Virus record (IMG/VR): IMGVR_UViG_3300025645_000102
Span: 1-52,368 of that record
Direction: 5' to 3' (one strand)
Length of the DNA: 52,368 nt
Source: a virus
The first letter of the stretch is position 1; each line of letters starts with the position of its first letter. The notes under the pieces were generated by a model, which was given only the letters and a program-made list of their open reading frames with translations, was not told the origin of the DNA and ran no database searches. The translations under genes and the position numbers were made by a program. Of this stretch, positions 1,278 to 11,631 are shown piece by piece.

Positions 1278-1290
1278 TTTAAAAAATATA

Positions 1291-1319
1291 TTGACAAATT
1301 AATATATTTGATATATTAT
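1291..1319 (+). promoter_or_regulatory. sigma-70 promoter driving the gene-free structured region
   Basis: A perfect -35 TTGACA (1291-1296) lies 17 bp before TATTAT (1314-1319). Transcription should begin near 1326 and would first produce about 400 nt without a good open reading frame. An ATTGAGATTA element follows at 1330-1339, resembling the AT[C/T]GAGGAAA leader of other promoters here, but no gene starts after it. Confidence 0.85.
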
Positions 1320-1325
1320 AGATAC

Positions 1326-1723
1326 TTAGATTGAGATTACAGAGTAATTTCTTGTTTAAGACTTCGGCGCAAATCCAAGAGCCTTTTATTAGGTGTAGCG
1401 TAGGCCGAGCCTACAGAACTTCAGAGGTTGATTAACCTCTCCTGACACAAAGAAACGTACAGCGGGAGCTTGCGCAGGGCATGTGTCGGAAACATAATAC
1501 CCACGATCAGGGTACTAACCGTGGATGCATTGTAATGATGTAAGCCTAGGGTGTTGGCATCGTAAGATGTTTTAGCTAGCTATTCTAGCGCGAAAATCGG
1601 CCACCCACTGTACCGAGGTACGACAAAAAGGTGGTTTAAGACAGCGCACACGGCCTGGAAGGGTATACTCCAAAGGTGTAGGTACCAAAAAATCAGTAAC
1701 AAAAAATCAAACAGGAATAAACA
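1326..1723 (+). ncRNA. Candidate structured noncoding RNA or long structured 5' leader (possible origin region)
   Basis: About 400 bases lie between a strong promoter and the next start codon, with no convincing ORF. By eye they contain many helices: 1400-1405/1409-1414, 1423-1429/1434-1440 (7 bp, GATT loop), 1444-1449/1482-1487 enclosing an AGC-GGGA-GCT hairpin (1461-1470), 1501-1505/1520-1524, 1557-1561/1566-1570 closed by the GNRA loop GTAA, 1575-1579/1585-1589, and 1601-1605/1630-1634 enclosing 1610-1613/1618-1621. GCGC at 1588-1591 can pair with GCGC at 1644-1647. The base composition is richer in G+C than the flanking genes. Signatures of tRNA, tmRNA, RNase P RNA and group I introns were not found. 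A UL9-like helicase gene follows 370 bases later, so an origin function is an alternative. Confidence 0.6.
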
Positions 1724-2093: not shown

Positions 2094-4841
2094 ATGACTA
2101 TTTCAGTACTACATGCTTGTGACTACAACGATAGAAATAAGCACGGTGAGTTTTTTAGAATAACTAGAGAAAACACCTTTTTAACTAAACGAATAGATAA
2201 GCAAGGCAATAAACTTAAAGCCAACTTCCCAAAGAAGTTTAAGCTAGGAGATTTTTATACCCCAGATTCGTTAACGGAATTAAAGCCTATACTAGAGCTG
2301 CTTGGCGAAGACCCCAAAGCTCTAATAATACGGCACCAATATATCAACGCTAAAATGGGAGATACAGTATTTAGACAGGCTAAATTCGTAAAGAATGAAG
2401 CTAGTAGAATAATCTGTATGGACATTGATGAGCTGGATTTACCAATGGATTTGGAACCTACGGACATAGTAGGACAGGGACTATACGTGTGTAATATTTT
2501 ACATAAATGTAATCCTAATATATTTCCAGACGACATGGGCTTTATTGCTCAGGGATCATCGAGCGCAGGACTTAGCAGGACTATAAAGCTACACTTATGG
2601 TTAGAGAACTATGATTGTGTAGACCAGTCTCAACTAAAGAACCTATTCTATAGTGTCAATAGCACTTTTAAATCTAGGTTCGAAACAAATATAAACTTAA
2701 TAGACGTATCACTATATAACGATATACAGGCGCACTATACCGCTTATCCTATGTTTGAGGAGACTTTGTCAGACCCATTAAAAGGTAAGCGTACGAGATA
2801 TAATTATGGGAATCGTTGCTATGTCCCCGAGGATTACGTTAGTTATGTAAAACCAGCAGTTACTACCGACCTTGAGCGTACAACATATTTGAATGCTATC
2901 ACGGGTAGTACCCTTCAAACTCTTGAACTATCTAATAGGATTAATGCCTTGAAAGATTGGGGCTCTTCTACTTCTGGTTTACGTAAAGCTGTTATTGCTA
3001 CATACCATACTGCTGTACAAACCCAGTATTGCTTAGATTTACTAAGAAAAGATATAACAAATGTATTGGATAGTAAACGACCAGGTGAGCTAGAAAACTA
3101 TATTTCACAGGGTATAGCTAGTGCTGTATCTAATGTTAAAGCTTGCTCTGTTCGCGAGGTACCTCTAAAATGTTTGGGTCTCCCACTGAAAACTATTAGT
3201 GGTGGTGGTGAAGAAAAGTTTCTAAATATGGGAGAATACCCACCACCAGATTCTGTAGTATTCTTAAAAGCTACGCTAGGGACGGGGAAAACTTATAACA
3301 TAGAGCAGTGGTTAAAGTCTGGACACATCGAGGGTAGATTCCTAGCTTTGACAGATACTTCGGCTTTAGTAGAATCAAACACGAAAAGATTCAACCCTGC
3401 ACGAGACTTTAGAAATCCCAAAGGAAGATTAGACTTTGCTACAGGTAAGGTTCAACGTCTTTCTGGCACGTTGCACTCTCTTTATAAAATCAAAGACTTA
3501 ACTAATAGCTTTGATTTTTTGTTTATAGATGAGGCAGATTCTCTGATGAATAATTTATTGTTCGCTACAATAATAAGCGAAGAAAAGCGAGTTATCATAA
3601 TAGAAGTTCTACGGGAGTTGTTGCAAAATACAGATAGAGTTATAATAAGTGATGGGGATATATCGGAAGAAACAGTAGCCCAATATGTAGAGTTAATGCA
3701 AGGTTCTAGGAATCTATACAGAGTATCGCACAAACGTCAAAATCTAAAGGGCGTTCCTGCGTACAAACATGTTAAAGAGAGTTCTTTATGGGGAGCTTTG
3801 CAGGGACACTTAGAGCTAGGAGATAAATGCTTGTTAGTTTCCGATTCTTCGCCAAAAGCTATCAATGAGTACTTGACTGCATTCAATAGATTGTTGCCTA
3901 GCAAAGTTATAAAGGTAGTTCATTCTTCATCTACTGACGATCATGATATTCGTGATATTATAGATAATACTACCGTAGCTTTGCGTAGACAAGAGGTAGA
4001 CGCATTAATATGTAGTCCTAGTATTACTAATGGGGTAGACTTTAATTATTTTGATACTGTGTTTATCTTGACCACATCTGAGAATCACACACCAAATATG
4101 AGGTTCCAGGCTATGATGCGAGAACGCTCACCTGAGACTATTCATTATTATTTTGGTCTTATGAAACAGTTTATTACAGGTTTTTCTAGTGTGACAGTTG
4201 ATAAAGACTTCTTGCCCACAGCTAGGAAAGCTTATGCAGCTAGGAGGGAGCGAGAGTATAAAACTTATGTAGCCACGTTTAATTACTATTTGGTAGAGTC
4301 TGGTGCTACAGTAGAAGTTATAGACGTTCCTTACGATAATCCCAAAGAAGCTGTAGATAAAGAAGAATACTTGATAGAAAGAATAATGGCTATATTAAAC
4401 GCCAAAGAAAGTGTATCGCAAGCACGACATAACGATGCCTATGAAATGAAAGAGAAGATAAAATTCTTTTATGATGTAGACGAGTTAGCTTGGGATGATG
4501 TGGCGTGTTTTCTTAAAGAAAAACCAGATAAATGCGCTGAATACTTTCATAAGTTATATAAATCTTTTGGAAAAGAAATTCTGTCGGCTAGCGTAGAAAA
4601 CCTACTGATTGCTTTGAGAAGTAGACCGAATGAGTTTTACTTGGCTGTAGGTGGTTCTTTGCAGGGAATAAACTCTCAAAGTGGGATCAATAAAACTAAA
4701 CAGATACTTAGTAGGTGTGGCGTTAAGAAAACATCTTCTAATTTACTAGAATGGTATACAAAGTACTGTGAGTACACCGATGGAATAATTTTACCACCAG
4801 AACTTAGAGAATCAACGGAGACAATTAATGAATTACTTTAA
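2094..4841 (+). CDS. Primase-like / SF2 helicase fusion, UL9-type origin-binding-protein-like
   Basis: This 915-aa protein has two recognisable parts. Residues ~390-680 form a superfamily 2 helicase: Walker A ATLGTGKT (393-400), a DEAD box in FIDEAD (479-482), ISDGDIS (motif III region, ~518-524), SPSITNGVDF (motif V, 641-650) and QAMMRERS (motif VI, 672-679). Layout and motif style match the herpesvirus UL9 / phage replication-origin-binding-protein family. Residues ~80-250 carry a pattern like the archaeo-eukaryotic primase active site: CMDID (D110, D112), a Ser-rich loop ending in LHLWL (H167) and LIDVS (D204). The C-terminal ~200 residues are unassigned. The likely role is opening or priming DNA at the phage origin. 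It lies directly downstream of a structured gene-free region that could be that origin. The helicase part is secure; the primase part is inference. Confidence 0.8.
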   Translation: MTISVLHACDYNDRNKHGEFFRITRENTFLTKRIDKQGNKLKANFPKKFKLGDFYTPDSLTELKPILELLGEDPKALIIRHQYINAKMGDTVFRQAKFVKNEASRIICMDIDELDLPMDLEPTDIVGQGLYVCNILHKCNPNIFPDDMGFIAQGSSSAGLSRTIKLHLWLENYDCVDQSQLKNLFYSVNSTFKSRFETNINLIDVSLYNDIQAHYTAYPMFEETLSDPLKGKRTRYNYGNRCYVPEDYVSYVKPAVTTDLERTTYLNAITGSTLQTLELSNRINALKDWGSSTSGLRKAVIATYHTAVQTQYCLDLLRKDITNVLDSKRPGELENYISQGIASAVSNVKACSVREVPLKCLGLPLKTISGGGEEKFLNMGEYPPPDSVVFLKATLGTGKTYNIEQWLKSGHIEGRFLALTDTSALVESNTKRFNPARDFRNPKGRLDFATGKVQRLSGTLHSLYKIKDLTNSFDFLFIDEADSLMNNLLFATIISEEKRVIIIEVLRELLQNTDRVIISDGDISEETVAQYVELMQGSRNLYRVSHKRQNLKGVPAYKHVKESSLWGALQGHLELGDKCLLVSDSSPKAINEYLTAFNRLLPSKVIKVVHSSSTDDHDIRDIIDNTTVALRRQEVDALICSPSITNGVDFNYFDTVFILTTSENHTPNMRFQAMMRERSPETIHYYFGLMKQFITGFSSVTVDKDFLPTARKAYAARREREYKTYVATFNYYLVESGATVEVIDVPYDNPKEAVDKEEYLIERIMAILNAKESVSQARHNDAYEMKEKIKFFYDVDELAWDDVACFLKEKPDKCAEYFHKLYKSFGKEILSASVENLLIALRSRPNEFYLAVGGSLQGINSQSGINKTKQILSRCGVKKTSSNLLEWYTKYCEYTDGIILPPELRESTETINELL

Positions 4842-8559: not shown

Positions 8560-9277
8560 AATTAGTTGGAACGAAGAAAACACCGCAAAATTAGTATCAC
8601 TAGCTGGAACAGGCGTAGTCTCTCAAGCAGACTTGGTAACTATTGCAGACGAAATGGGTACAAGCGCACGCTCAGTTGGAGCTAAACTACGTAAGCTAGA
8701 TTTCGAAGTAGATAAAGCAGCGGGTAAAGCACCAGCTTGGACACCAGAGCAAGAATCAGCTTTGGGTGACTTTGTTACTTCTAACGCCGGTCAGTATACT
8801 TATGTAGAAATCGCAGAATTGTTCCAAGAAGGCACATTCAACGCTAAGCAAGTACAGGGTAAGTTACTTAATATGGAATTGTTTGGTTCTGTACGTAAAG
8901 CAGAAAAGAAAGTAGCACCTCGTAAGTATTCTCCAGAAGAAGAAGCAGAATTAGTCTCTCTTATCTCTCAAGGTGCTACTATCGAAGCTATCGCTGAAGC
9001 TTTCAACAAACCTATCACTAGTATTCGTGGTAAAGCTCTTAGCCTTTTACGTGCTAAAGAGATTGACGCAATGCCTAAGCAAGCCAATAGCCAAGCTAAA
9101 GAGCCTGTAGATTTGTTGGTTGAAATTAATGTTGCAGAATCTACTGTAGATCAAATCGCAGAAGCTATTGGTAAAACTTCTCGTGGTGTTAAATCTATGT
9201 TAAGCCGCAGAGGTTTAAGTTGTGTAGACTATGACGGCGAAGGTCGTAGAGAAAAGCTAGATAACAAAGACGCGTAA
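8549..9277 (+). CDS. Multi-repeat Myb/SANT-like DNA-binding protein (T5 D5-like position)
   Basis: The 242-aa protein consists of about four related ~50-residue repeats: residues ~4-52 (ISWNEENTAKLVSLA), ~62-115 (PAWTPEQESALGDFV), ~125-172 (RKYSPEEEAELVSLI) and a degenerate fourth (~185-228). Each has an aromatic-x-x-E start and ends in a helix of the type SVGAKLRKLDF. This is the look of Myb/SANT helix-turn-helix repeats and implies binding along DNA. It sits between the ligase and the DnaB-like helicase, where T5 has D5, an abundant DNA-binding protein controlling late replication and transcription. A strong terminator follows directly, consistent with high, separately controlled output. 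Identity with D5 is inferred from position, size and type. Confidence 0.65.
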   Translation: MTNKISWNEENTAKLVSLAGTGVVSQADLVTIADEMGTSARSVGAKLRKLDFEVDKAAGKAPAWTPEQESALGDFVTSNAGQYTYVEIAELFQEGTFNAKQVQGKLLNMELFGSVRKAEKKVAPRKYSPEEEAELVSLISQGATIEAIAEAFNKPITSIRGKALSLLRAKEIDAMPKQANSQAKEPVDLLVEINVAESTVDQIAEAIGKTSRGVKSMLSRRGLSCVDYDGEGRREKLDNKDA

Positions 9278-9376: not shown

Positions 9377-10762
9377 ATGAATATAGAAGGAGTAACGTTA
9401 TCCCTTCTATTACAAGAACAAGACAAAGACGTCGCATTAACTTACTTTTCAGAACTAAACCAAGACTACTTCAGCAGTTCTTTTAAAACAGTAGCTAAAA
9501 CTATAAAAGACTTTTATTTAGATAAAGGATTTGTTCCTAGCATTGGTGAACTAGAAGTATATAGAAGTCGTGATAAGAAGTTACTTTCTGCACTAGCATC
9601 TATAGCTCTGATAGACTGCGACAACATTGATATACAAGTAGCCATAGAAGAGCTAGCTAATCAATACGCACAAAACACTGCGTTAGATTTATTTGAGGGT
9701 CTACTAGAAAGTATTTCTAACATGGATCGTCATGAGCTTATTGAACAAATATCAGCTTTACCAATAAAAATGGAAGACAAAATTAGTTCTTCCGAAGTAG
9801 TTTATACTATTTCTGATTTGAAACTATTCTGTTCAGCAGAAGACGCTCAGTTAGACAGAATATACTCAGGTATTTGCGATGAATGGGATCATGAAGCAGG
9901 CGGCTATTATAGGCAAGACTTAGTTTTGTTAGGTGGTAAGCGAGGTAGCGGAAAGTCTATTACGTGTGCTAATTTAATTGCACAACAACACAAACAAAAA
10001 AATGTATCAGTATATTTTACCATAGAAGATGGAGCACACGCGACTATGGAAAGGATACTCTGTATATTGTCTCAAGTACCTTATGGGAACATAAAAAAGA
10101 AAACAACAACAGACGCAGAAAATAAATTATTAGCGCAAACATTAGCTTCTCTTTTCGATAATGGTGAAGCCTGTCTAACGGACTATTTAACTGTAGCCCC
10201 TAAACTAGACTTAGTAGAATTTCAGGACGTATTGTATAGAGAATGTAAAGAGAAAGAAGAAGGTCGTATAATAATAGTAGACGACAGACAACTTAGCGTA
10301 GGGTCTATAGATTCTAAAATTTCTAGTATTAAATCAAAATACGGAGATAAACTGGCTTTGGTTGTAGTAGATTATGTTAACCAGGTAATACTAGACGGTA
10401 ACACTGACATGTATGATTGGAAGCCTCAAATAGTTATATCAAAGACTCTGAAGACTTGTGCTAGAAAAAATAACATATGTATCGTCAGTCCATATCAAAT
10501 TGATGATACCGGAGTGGCTAGATTCGCTAAAGGTATACTAGATGCCGCAGACGTTGCTCAAATACTAGAAGTGGCTGATAAAGAATCAGGGCTGCTAGGT
10601 TTGAATACATCCAAAGCTAGGTCGGCTAACGATACTGGAAAATACTTGATGCATATGGATTGGAAGACTCTTACAATAGACCCTAGACCTGTGGTGCTCG
10701 ATGTAGAAGATGACGAAGACAGTGTGGGTTCCGGTAAACCTATTGAAGGATTGGAAATATGA
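9377..10762 (+). CDS. DnaB-type replicative DNA helicase
   Basis: The 461-aa protein has a helical N-terminal domain (residues ~1-130, starting GVTLSLLLQEQD as in DnaB primase-interaction domains) and a RecA-like helicase core. Walker A is GGKRGSGKS (186-194) and Walker B is ALVVVDYVNQV with D332. The last 25 residues are acidic (DVEDDEDSVG), a tail often used for partner binding. It should form a hexamer that unwinds the fork and recruits the TOPRIM primase encoded next, whose ATG overlaps its stop (4 bases). It corresponds in position to the T5 replicative helicase (D6). No dedicated promoter is visible; expression would come by read-through of the terminator at 9296-9320. Confidence 0.88.
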   Translation: MNIEGVTLSLLLQEQDKDVALTYFSELNQDYFSSSFKTVAKTIKDFYLDKGFVPSIGELEVYRSRDKKLLSALASIALIDCDNIDIQVAIEELANQYAQNTALDLFEGLLESISNMDRHELIEQISALPIKMEDKISSSEVVYTISDLKLFCSAEDAQLDRIYSGICDEWDHEAGGYYRQDLVLLGGKRGSGKSITCANLIAQQHKQKNVSVYFTIEDGAHATMERILCILSQVPYGNIKKKTTTDAENKLLAQTLASLFDNGEACLTDYLTVAPKLDLVEFQDVLYRECKEKEEGRIIIVDDRQLSVGSIDSKISSIKSKYGDKLALVVVDYVNQVILDGNTDMYDWKPQIVISKTLKTCARKNNICIVSPYQIDDTGVARFAKGILDAADVAQILEVADKESGLLGLNTSKARSANDTGKYLMHMDWKTLTIDPRPVVLDVEDDEDSVGSGKPIEGLEI

Positions 10763-11631
10763 CAGAAGTAGAAAAATTATTAACTGAAAAAGAGGTAACG
10801 TTTTTCTCGAAAGGGAAAGACTTATTAGTTACATGCTTTAACACAGAGCATGACGACGAAAACCCCTCTATGAGAATAAGTAGAGAAACCGGAGCATATC
10901 ATTGCTTCGGTTGTGGTTATAAAGGAAATGTATTTACTAGGTTTAACCGATATAGAAATATATTTTCTGCTAGAATTACTGCAATAAAAGAATCTATTAC
11001 AGATCTACGGATGGCATCTTGGGCGGGGTTTACTCTACCTACAGATGCTTTTTTTATGTATGAACCTTACAGAGACATACCAGCAGATGTTATTAAAAAA
11101 TTCGAAGCATTTAAAACAGACAAAATAGGGATGGAAGGTAGGATAGTATTCCCTATAAAAGATAATAGAGAAGTTACCGTAGGTTTTCAAGGTAGATTTA
11201 TAAACTCTAAAATTAGCCCTAAATATTTAGCTTACCCTGCGGGAGTGTCTTTCCCCTGGTACCCTAGCCCACCTAGAATTACGCCACTCGGCAACTCCAT
11301 TGTGTTAGTAGAAGGATTAATGGACGCATTATTTTTACACGGAAAAGGTATAACAAATGCCGTCAGTATTTTTGGCACTAAAAGTGTTACATACGATACT
11401 ATACTAGAAAAAATAACCCCCTTCTTACTGATGGGAATAGATACAGTATACTTATTATTAGACGGGGACAACGCAGGTCGCAGTGCCTCCACTAACATTG
11501 CAAAAATGCTTAAACAACAAACAGATGTAATAGTTGAAGAGTTGCCTTTAGAAGATGGGGAAGACCCTGCGACACTAACCGATGAGCACTTAATTAGTAT
11601 AAGAAAGTATTTGACAAAAGATGGAATATAA
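10759..11631 (+). CDS. DnaG-type (TOPRIM) DNA primase
   Basis: The 290-aa protein has a CHC2-type zinc-binding domain at its N-terminus (C26, H31, C49, C52 in CFNTEHDDENPS and YHCFGCGYKGN) and a TOPRIM catalytic domain: IVLVEGLMDA with E185 and LLLDGDNAGRS with D235 and D237. These acidic residues hold the metal for RNA primer synthesis. At 290 aa it is shorter than bacterial DnaG and lacks the C-terminal helicase-binding domain, as in other small phage primases. It overlaps the helicase gene by 4 bases and is likely its partner (T5 D7-like position). The promoter for the polymerase lies within and just after its 3' end. Confidence 0.88.
   Translation: MTEVEKLLTEKEVTFFSKGKDLLVTCFNTEHDDENPSMRISRETGAYHCFGCGYKGNVFTRFNRYRNIFSARITAIKESITDLRMASWAGFTLPTDAFFMYEPYRDIPADVIKKFEAFKTDKIGMEGRIVFPIKDNREVTVGFQGRFINSKISPKYLAYPAGVSFPWYPSPPRITPLGNSIVLVEGLMDALFLHGKGITNAVSIFGTKSVTYDTILEKITPFLLMGIDTVYLLLDGDNAGRSASTNIAKMLKQQTDVIVEELPLEDGEDPATLTDEHLISIRKYLTKDGI

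Follow-up and report, generated by a model that had tools for sequence, protein, structure and literature searches.

The gene obp, which occupies positions 2094 to 4841 on the + strand of a 52,368-base virus record (IMG/VR record IMGVR_UViG_3300025645_000102; "the window" denotes this whole stretch of DNA), encodes a protein that almost certainly combines, in a single polypeptide, a predicted archaeo-eukaryotic primase (AEP) domain and a superfamily 2 (SF2) helicase of the UL9-like type. In this analysis, support comes from sequence identity, conservation of the catalytic residues, the predicted AEP fold, the kinship of the helicase and the co-occurrence of a TOPRIM primase. The AEP domain, which has a complete D-D/H/D set of catalytic residues, is very likely to be a catalytically competent primase that would make primers. 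At the level of function, the protein probably is a replication initiator, a primase-helicase that would act at the origin, with the DnaG-type primase and the DnaB-type helicase of the same phage serving the forks, as suggested by analogy with related initiators. We consider this combination, an AEP-helicase initiator together with DnaB and DnaG at the forks, to be the best explanation as a whole, with a probability of roughly 0.6. The initial annotation of this DNA had placed the reading frame, the domain split and the helicase motifs (ATLGTGKT, residues 393-400; DEAD, 479-482; SPSITNGVDF, 641-650; QAMMRERS, 672-679) exactly where they are found in the 915-residue product. The gene and its predicted parts are the following.

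2094..4841, + strand: obp open reading frame (ORF), 915 aa, ATG start, matching PHROG 3712 and orthologous to T5.108; AEP domain, helix bundle, SF2 helicase and C-terminal helical region
2094..2855, + strand: predicted AEP-like primase domain, residues 1-254
2412..2429, + strand: AEP motif I, ICMDID, residues 107-112 (D110, D112)
2586..2594, + strand: AEP motif II position, [K/R]xH, residues 165-167 (H167)
2700..2705, + strand: AEP motif III, hD, I203-D204
2859..3155, + strand: predicted helix-bundle domain, residues 256-354
3243..4163, + strand: SF2 helicase core of the UL9 / CyRepA1 / N15-RepA type, residues 384-690
3279..3293, + strand: Walker A, GTGKT, residues 396-400 (G396, G398, K399 and T400 invariant)
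3528..3539, + strand: Walker B, DEAD (DECD in T5), residues 479-482, from the alignment
4014..4043, + strand: helicase motif V region, SPSITNGVDF, residues 641-650, from the alignment
4107..4127, + strand: helicase motif VI, Q672...R676...R678, from the alignment
4164..4838, + strand: C-terminal helical region, residues 691-915, with 9 invariant residues only

The catalytic signature of the AEPs comprises motifs I (hhhDhD/E), II (small-x-His) and III (hD/E), as defined in PMC4538821. The N-terminal domain of obp carries motif I in the form IICMDID and motif III as I203-D204, the latter in the context I-D-x-x-x-Y208; the motif II position reads I[K/R]xH, and apart from its K or R the context and spacing agree with those of the AEP motifs. 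Conservation was assessed in an alignment of 46 homologous rows (42 of them distinct, 22 after thinning to <90% identity) that reaches down to approximately 28% identity to the window protein, or 27% for the truncated protein of Salmonella phage falkor. Between residues 60 and 250, the window protein contains 30 Asp, Glu and His residues, and the only ones that are invariant over the 46 rows are D110, D112, H167 and D204, precisely the residues that the initial annotation had singled out as an AEP-like pattern. A random pick of exactly these four among the 30 has a chance of 1 in 27,405, a figure that has to be read with the reservation that the annotation may have used general knowledge of the motifs. 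In addition, the 'DNA primase' profile PHROG 16950 matches residues 62-230 of obp (0.0015 in the window protein) and is matched by 6 of 14 family members, with a best value of 1.3e-5. For the AEP-like domain, the ratio of nonsynonymous to synonymous substitution rates (dN/dS) between the window and its relative L002 is 0.08, with dS near saturation.

The AlphaFold2 model of residues 1-370, built from 24 homologues (pLDDT 87.5, pTM 0.68), places D110 and D112 on a strand spanning residues 104-115 and H167 on another one spanning residues 163-176, whereas D204 closes the loop preceding a short helix. When this model was compared with the PDB using Foldseek, AEPs accounted for 49 of the best 50 matches listed, the exception being an HMG-CoA reductase at rank 41; among the AEPs are the polymerase domain of LigD, UL52 of herpes simplex virus (HSV) in helicase-primase complexes, PrimPol of African swine fever virus (ASFV), the poxvirus D5/E5 proteins, Prim-PolC and the PrimPol of cyanophage S-2L. 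The alignments of residues 2-254 produced with VIA-align yielded Z-scores of 7.1 for human PrimPol (166 residues aligned, 4.1 A), 7.0 for HSV UL52 and 6.2 for the AEP domain of vaccinia virus D5, within a range of 5.3-7.1 across PrimPol, UL52, D5/E5 and LigD. A search of predicted viral structures retrieved the T5 family first and then phage primases, VirE-like, DUF927 and NrS-1-like proteins, among unnamed rows. Taken singly, these scores are modest; they nonetheless support a predicted AEP fold, that is, an N-terminal alpha-beta unit followed by an RNA recognition motif (RRM)-like unit, because three lines of evidence agree: a set of hits made up almost entirely of AEPs, a triad that is invariant and correctly placed, and the PHROG 16950 match. 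Thus, the two properties by which the proposed AEP assignment could be checked, namely the fold of the N-terminus and the conservation of the Asp and His residues, both speak in its favor.

The AEP-like domain is followed by a stretch (residues 256-354) that is helical in the model and is similar to a helix bundle of the pRN1 primase (3m1m, Z 6.2; 6gt7, Z 6.1), in which the bundle also comes after the AEP domain. By the tool's own note, scores of this size are weak evidence where helical bundles are concerned; a designed helical repeat protein, the top VIA-align row overall, scores 7.8 on the same stretch (residues 271-353). The UPF0335 proteins, which are the best PDB matches of the N-terminal profile, align with residues 267-339 at E 0.26-0.75 and were dismissed as not significant.

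Motifs I, II, V and VI of SF2 helicases are all present in obp, and K399/T400, D479/E480/D482, D649, Q672 and R676 are invariant in all homologues that cover these positions. Apart from PHROG 3712, the profile with the best match to the helicase is CyRepA1 (NCBIfam NF042913; E 3.9e-36, model positions 3-299 of 595), with a score of 125.1 bits that is below the equivalog-domain cut-off of 200; this profile matches all 14 family members. Searched against the PDB, the family profile finds the HSV origin-binding protein (9hgj) at 2e-6, and the same protein (9hgi) is at rank 5 among the matches of a whole-protein AlphaFold2 model that was built from 7 homologues and, at a pLDDT of 53.8, was used solely for this helicase comparison. 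In hhalign, the obp helicase aligns with CyRepA1 at 5.5e-18, with a Campylobacter phage helicase at 2.5e-10 and with the N15-type RepA at 1.7e-9. The UL9-like label is supported by profile and model, but the best-scoring profile is that of a plasmid initiator rather than UL9. The Pfam check suggested along with the label came out mixed: the window protein has no match to PF02399 (Herpes_ori_bp) at E<=1, whereas 9 of the 14 family members do, with T5 and Slocum at 30.5 and 39.0 bits, respectively, against a cut-off of 20, the match in these two being confined to profile positions 46-198 of 820, the first helicase lobe.

Over its entire length, obp belongs to a family typified by T5.108 of phage T5, its orthologue with 34% identity. 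The PHROG 3712 'replication origin binding' profile matches residues 10-910 with an E-value of 2.3e-218 (profile positions 9-912 of 927), that is, the match is full-length. A tblastn search with the window protein found matches at E 1e-5 in 903 of 50,697 phage records, all below 60% identity and named chiefly after Vibrio, Salmonella, Escherichia and Klebsiella; in 893 of the 903, a single place covers at least 80% of the query. The closest named relatives are about 34-36% identical to the window protein. Among plasmids, 59 records match part of obp (the helicase, among the matches listed) and none covers 80%, and in one scan of contigs from bacterial chromosomes none of the 173 candidate stretches was confirmed as a relative. 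Records of the T5.108 family are annotated mostly by the helicase, and a few say 'DNA primase' or 'DNA primase C', so that annotators had already met a hint of the primase identity. In Salmonella phage GSW6 (NC_111398.1, 5339-8027), obp is annotated as two coding sequences, which probably reflects a frameshift or a sequencing error.

The + strand half of the window follows the early-gene order of T5, with obp followed by genes for ligase, D5-like, DnaB-like and DnaG-like proteins, PolA, a D10-like helicase, SbcD/SbcC-like proteins and a D15-like nuclease; the neighborhood of T5.108 and its Demerecviridae orthologues is likewise D2-D3-lig-D5-D6-pri-pol-D10. The TOPRIM primase and the DnaB-type helicase that had been proposed to be encoded in the same phage are indeed found in this region.

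9377..10762, + strand: DnaB-type replicative helicase, orthologue of T5 D6 (DnaB_C, 1e-16)
10759..11631, + strand: DnaG-type TOPRIM primase, orthologue of T5 pri (Zn_ribbon_DnaG, DNAG_N and Toprim_2, all above the Pfam cut-offs)

The DnaG homologue of the window displays the VEG and LDGD motifs. A search with this protein, which covered 27 of 59 related loci, found a TOPRIM primase in 27 of 27 records, 35-66% identical and with one match each. In the T5-like family, the AEP fusion thus exists alongside the TOPRIM primase rather than in its place. In one T5-like record (G027 C1, 17756-18589), the DnaG-type primase match contains an in-frame TGA.

The functional assignment draws primarily on comparison with replication initiators of other mobile elements. 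CyRepA1, the initiator of cyanobacterial plasmids, contains a helicase of the same type as obp, also preceded by a primase-type domain, but this domain is DUF3854 (in all three members examined, with 9e-41 as the best value) as opposed to the AEP of obp. Judging by the visible E and D motifs, DUF3854 is presumably TOPRIM-like. A Nostoc plasmid (L119, 2481-5813) shows this arrangement of DUF3854 followed by the UL9-like helicase. The plasmid pSYSA cannot replicate without the CyRepA1 protein slr7037, which is described as 'featuring primase and helicase domains' (PMC9978351; PMC10899382). Similarly, in the N15-type RepA (N15 gp37, phiKO2, PY54 and VP882; PHROG 4913), which is encoded by plasmid prophages, the obp-type helicase is joined to a primase domain that is of the TOPRIM type instead of AEP. 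In the member examined, the RepA of Klebsiella phage 020009 (L112, 1805-5812), the N-terminus matches PHROG 2249 'DNA primase' at 2e-31 and Toprim_3 at 0.013, which is below the cut-off, and the helicase matches PF02399 at 7.1e-7 and the obp helicase in hhalign at the 1.7e-9 given above. In elements of the PY54 type, circular replication requires only repA (PMC10612081). Thus, one helicase lineage recurs beside a primase, of the TOPRIM type in N15-type RepA and CyRepA1, and AEP in the T5-like phages. It is this recurrence in plasmid initiators that leads us to interpret the T5 protein, by analogy, as a probable replication initiator.

The closest parallels in domain architecture come from viruses of eukaryotes. 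In mimivirus R8, ASFV F1055L, Ostreid herpesvirus 1 and the mriyaviruses, an AEP is fused to a UL9-like SF2 helicase in the same order as in obp, with the AEP at the N-terminus and the helicase at the C-terminus (PMC11253617). By the published description, the motif II His has been lost in some of these proteins, in contrast to its presence in every one of the 46 obp rows. The UL9 protein of HSV (PDB 9hgi, 9hgj) shares the helicase core with obp, whereas the UL9 proteins of mammalian herpesviruses lack an AEP (PMC11253617). Among prokaryotic mobile elements, AEPs of the All3500 family fused to SF2-like helicases and the UL9-like phage helicases of pVOG9714 have been described (PMC5862659), a link between AEPs and remote SF2/UL9-like helicases comparable to that in obp. 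The UL9-like helicase of Campylobacter phage CPX (L111, 2101-4464) has an N-terminus with the sequence LDLD and, by eye, no evident motif II His; it was not counted as an AEP fusion since hhalign with the N-terminal profile of obp was negative (0.7% probability), and its N-terminus is possibly a decayed AEP.

Under the preferred reading, replication would start with the ATP-driven helicase of obp opening or remodeling the DNA at an initiation site or origin, after which the AEP domain would make the first primer or primers on the exposed strand, to be extended by the A-family polymerase of the phage. The loaded forks would then pass to the other pair, the DnaB-type helicase and the TOPRIM primase, with priming of the lagging strand.

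Several observations weigh against this reading. At the level of structure, no PDB row in the Foldseek comparison is below E 0.001 (the best is 2.2e-3, with probability 0.96), the TM-scores are low (about 0.2-0.25; at most 0.25 when normalized by the query), perhaps because the two-domain model was compared as a whole, and all AEP Z-scores are below 8, a range where the tool cautions that a common arrangement might be involved. At the sequence level, motif II has K or R at residue 165 in place of the small residue of the textbook motif, although His167 is present in 46 of 46 rows, and no AEP was retrieved when the PDB sequences were searched with the N-terminal family profile using HMMER. With respect to the origin, no iteron array is detectable upstream of or within obp. 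In N15 and PY54, the replication origin lies inside the RepA gene. A comparable location inside obp was considered and rejected: across the 27 T5-like sequences described below, the lowest 25-codon window has a synonymous difference of 0.113, compared with a shuffled 5% threshold of 0.096, and is not significant. The C-terminal RVKNL of UL9, its origin-recognition motif (PMC12543377), is found in none of the 46 rows by either an exact or a loose pattern (effectively 44 rows, since little of the C-terminus is left in falkor and in the cut-off L068), so that the 'origin binding' label derives from the kinship of the helicase alone and origin recognition is unsupported by homology. Furthermore, the co-occurring DnaG could account for all priming. 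Finally, in Salmonella phage falkor (NC_102106; L032, 2908-4074), the obp version is 388 aa long, with all four AEP catalytic residues retained and with the helicase part and the following genes gone; homology to T5 ends near codon 311 and restarts about 2.45 kb downstream. If real, this deletion means that the helicase is dispensable in falkor; it is seen in a single record and could be an assembly artefact or specific to the isolate.

Human PrimPol is among the best AEP structural neighbors of obp by Z-score, and one could imagine a PrimPol-like repair or repriming factor that restarts stalled forks or bypasses damage, with initiation proceeding by recombination, transcripts or nicks, and with DnaG and DnaB conducting normal replication. 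Such a role would fit the presence of a full DnaG/DnaB pair, the retention of DnaG in the relatives and the fact that falkor was isolated even without the helicase. It appears unlikely, given that the nearest helicase families are replication initiators of plasmids and phages and that near full-length obp is found in 893 of the 903 matched phage records, a steadier presence than expected of an accessory repair gene. The conservation of all four catalytic residues over 46 of 46 rows, which is unexpected for a dead enzyme, and the dN/dS value of 0.08 between the window and L002 (again with dS near saturation) make it improbable that obp is a helicase initiator with a non-polymerizing AEP fold that binds DNA or nucleotide, with primers supplied by DnaG or by transcripts that RNA polymerase makes. 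What speaks for this variant is the other primase of T5, the N-terminus of the Campylobacter phage helicase and the plasmid pSYSA, which is run by a related helicase and for which transcript-primed replication has been proposed (PMC9978351). In short, the invariant triad argues against a silent AEP and the initiator kinship of the helicase argues against a repair role, with neither argument being decisive. That obp is a UL9-like origin-binding helicase without a genuine AEP, with the Asp/His pattern arising by coincidence, is highly implausible: the database name 'replication origin binding protein' and the HMMER result described above would agree with it, but the AEP fold matches and the exact invariance of the triad strongly disfavor it.

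A possible origin region lies upstream of obp.

1278..1723, + strand: non-coding gap of 446 nt, a candidate control or origin region, with a sigma-70-like promoter at 1291-1319

This gap is separated from obp by an ORF of 122 aa and contains the promoter-like sequence TTGACA-17-TATTAT, which agrees with the sigma-70-like consensus in 11 of 12 positions. By eye, it is richer in G+C than its surroundings, and it can be aligned with that of L002 with a mean column identity of 83%. In T5, too, there is a non-coding gap upstream of T5.108. The alignment of the upstream regions of 27 T5-like sequences (T5 and 26 of the 41 loci L036-L076, the others having failed the start or identity filter; L038 is probably T5 itself) contains blocks with 0.01-0.09 nucleotide difference, compared with 0.266 at the four-fold sites of obp, and conservation is highest in a stretch that overlaps the annotated T5 promoter and continues downstream of it (L031, ~9,054-9,170; AY543070, ~59053-59169). 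The gap of the window belongs to no Rfam family, the one hit at E<=10 being to a snoRNA family far under the cut-off, and it shows no folding excess (z-score -0.51); in the two-sequence alignment, 9 of the 74 predicted pairs have changed on both sides, with too few sequences to judge. In two scans of the collection, conserved 18-19-mers of the upstream region were found only in L002 and in two contigs with an obp 100% identical to that of the window.

In pSYSA, the proposed source of the replication primer is an RNA locus immediately upstream of cyRepA1 (PMC9978351). This parallel is suggestive of the conserved upstream block being a possible origin region of the T5-like phages. A broader scenario, which we put forward tentatively and consider rather doubtful, is that the conserved and transcribed non-coding block preceding obp is the origin at which the initiator acts, so that the initiator gene directly follows its own origin, in the same manner as the RNA locus of pSYSA precedes its primase-helicase Rep, with a handover to the TOPRIM primase and DnaB. 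In such a scenario, the UL9/CyRepA1-type helicase would be a general initiator motor of mobile elements that has acquired primases of two unrelated folds, the TOPRIM fold in N15-type RepA and CyRepA1, and the AEP fold in the T5-like phages and several eukaryotic viruses.

The fusion of an AEP with a UL9-like helicase is already published for eukaryotic viruses, and obp of the T5-like phages is an added member of this architecture. What is unusual is that, in these phages, it occurs beside another primase that is conserved and unrelated to it. Among the titles and abstract beginnings of the matches listed, we found no paper that calls T5.108 an AEP, and the main text of PMC5862659 contains no mention of T5 by the terms searched; no priority is claimed. 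T5 is a classic model phage, and its 'origin binding protein' has been so named only through the similarity of the helicase. If obp does combine an AEP primase with a helicase, each T5-like genome encodes two primases that are unrelated to each other, and two point mutations (the equivalents of D110A/D112A) would suffice to put the start of T5 replication to the test in a laboratory system that is already established. Initiators of phages, plasmids, giant viruses and herpesviruses would then be tied to one helicase lineage with interchangeable primases, and T5-like phages would offer a tractable bacterial model for an architecture that so far has been described mainly in eukaryotic viruses.

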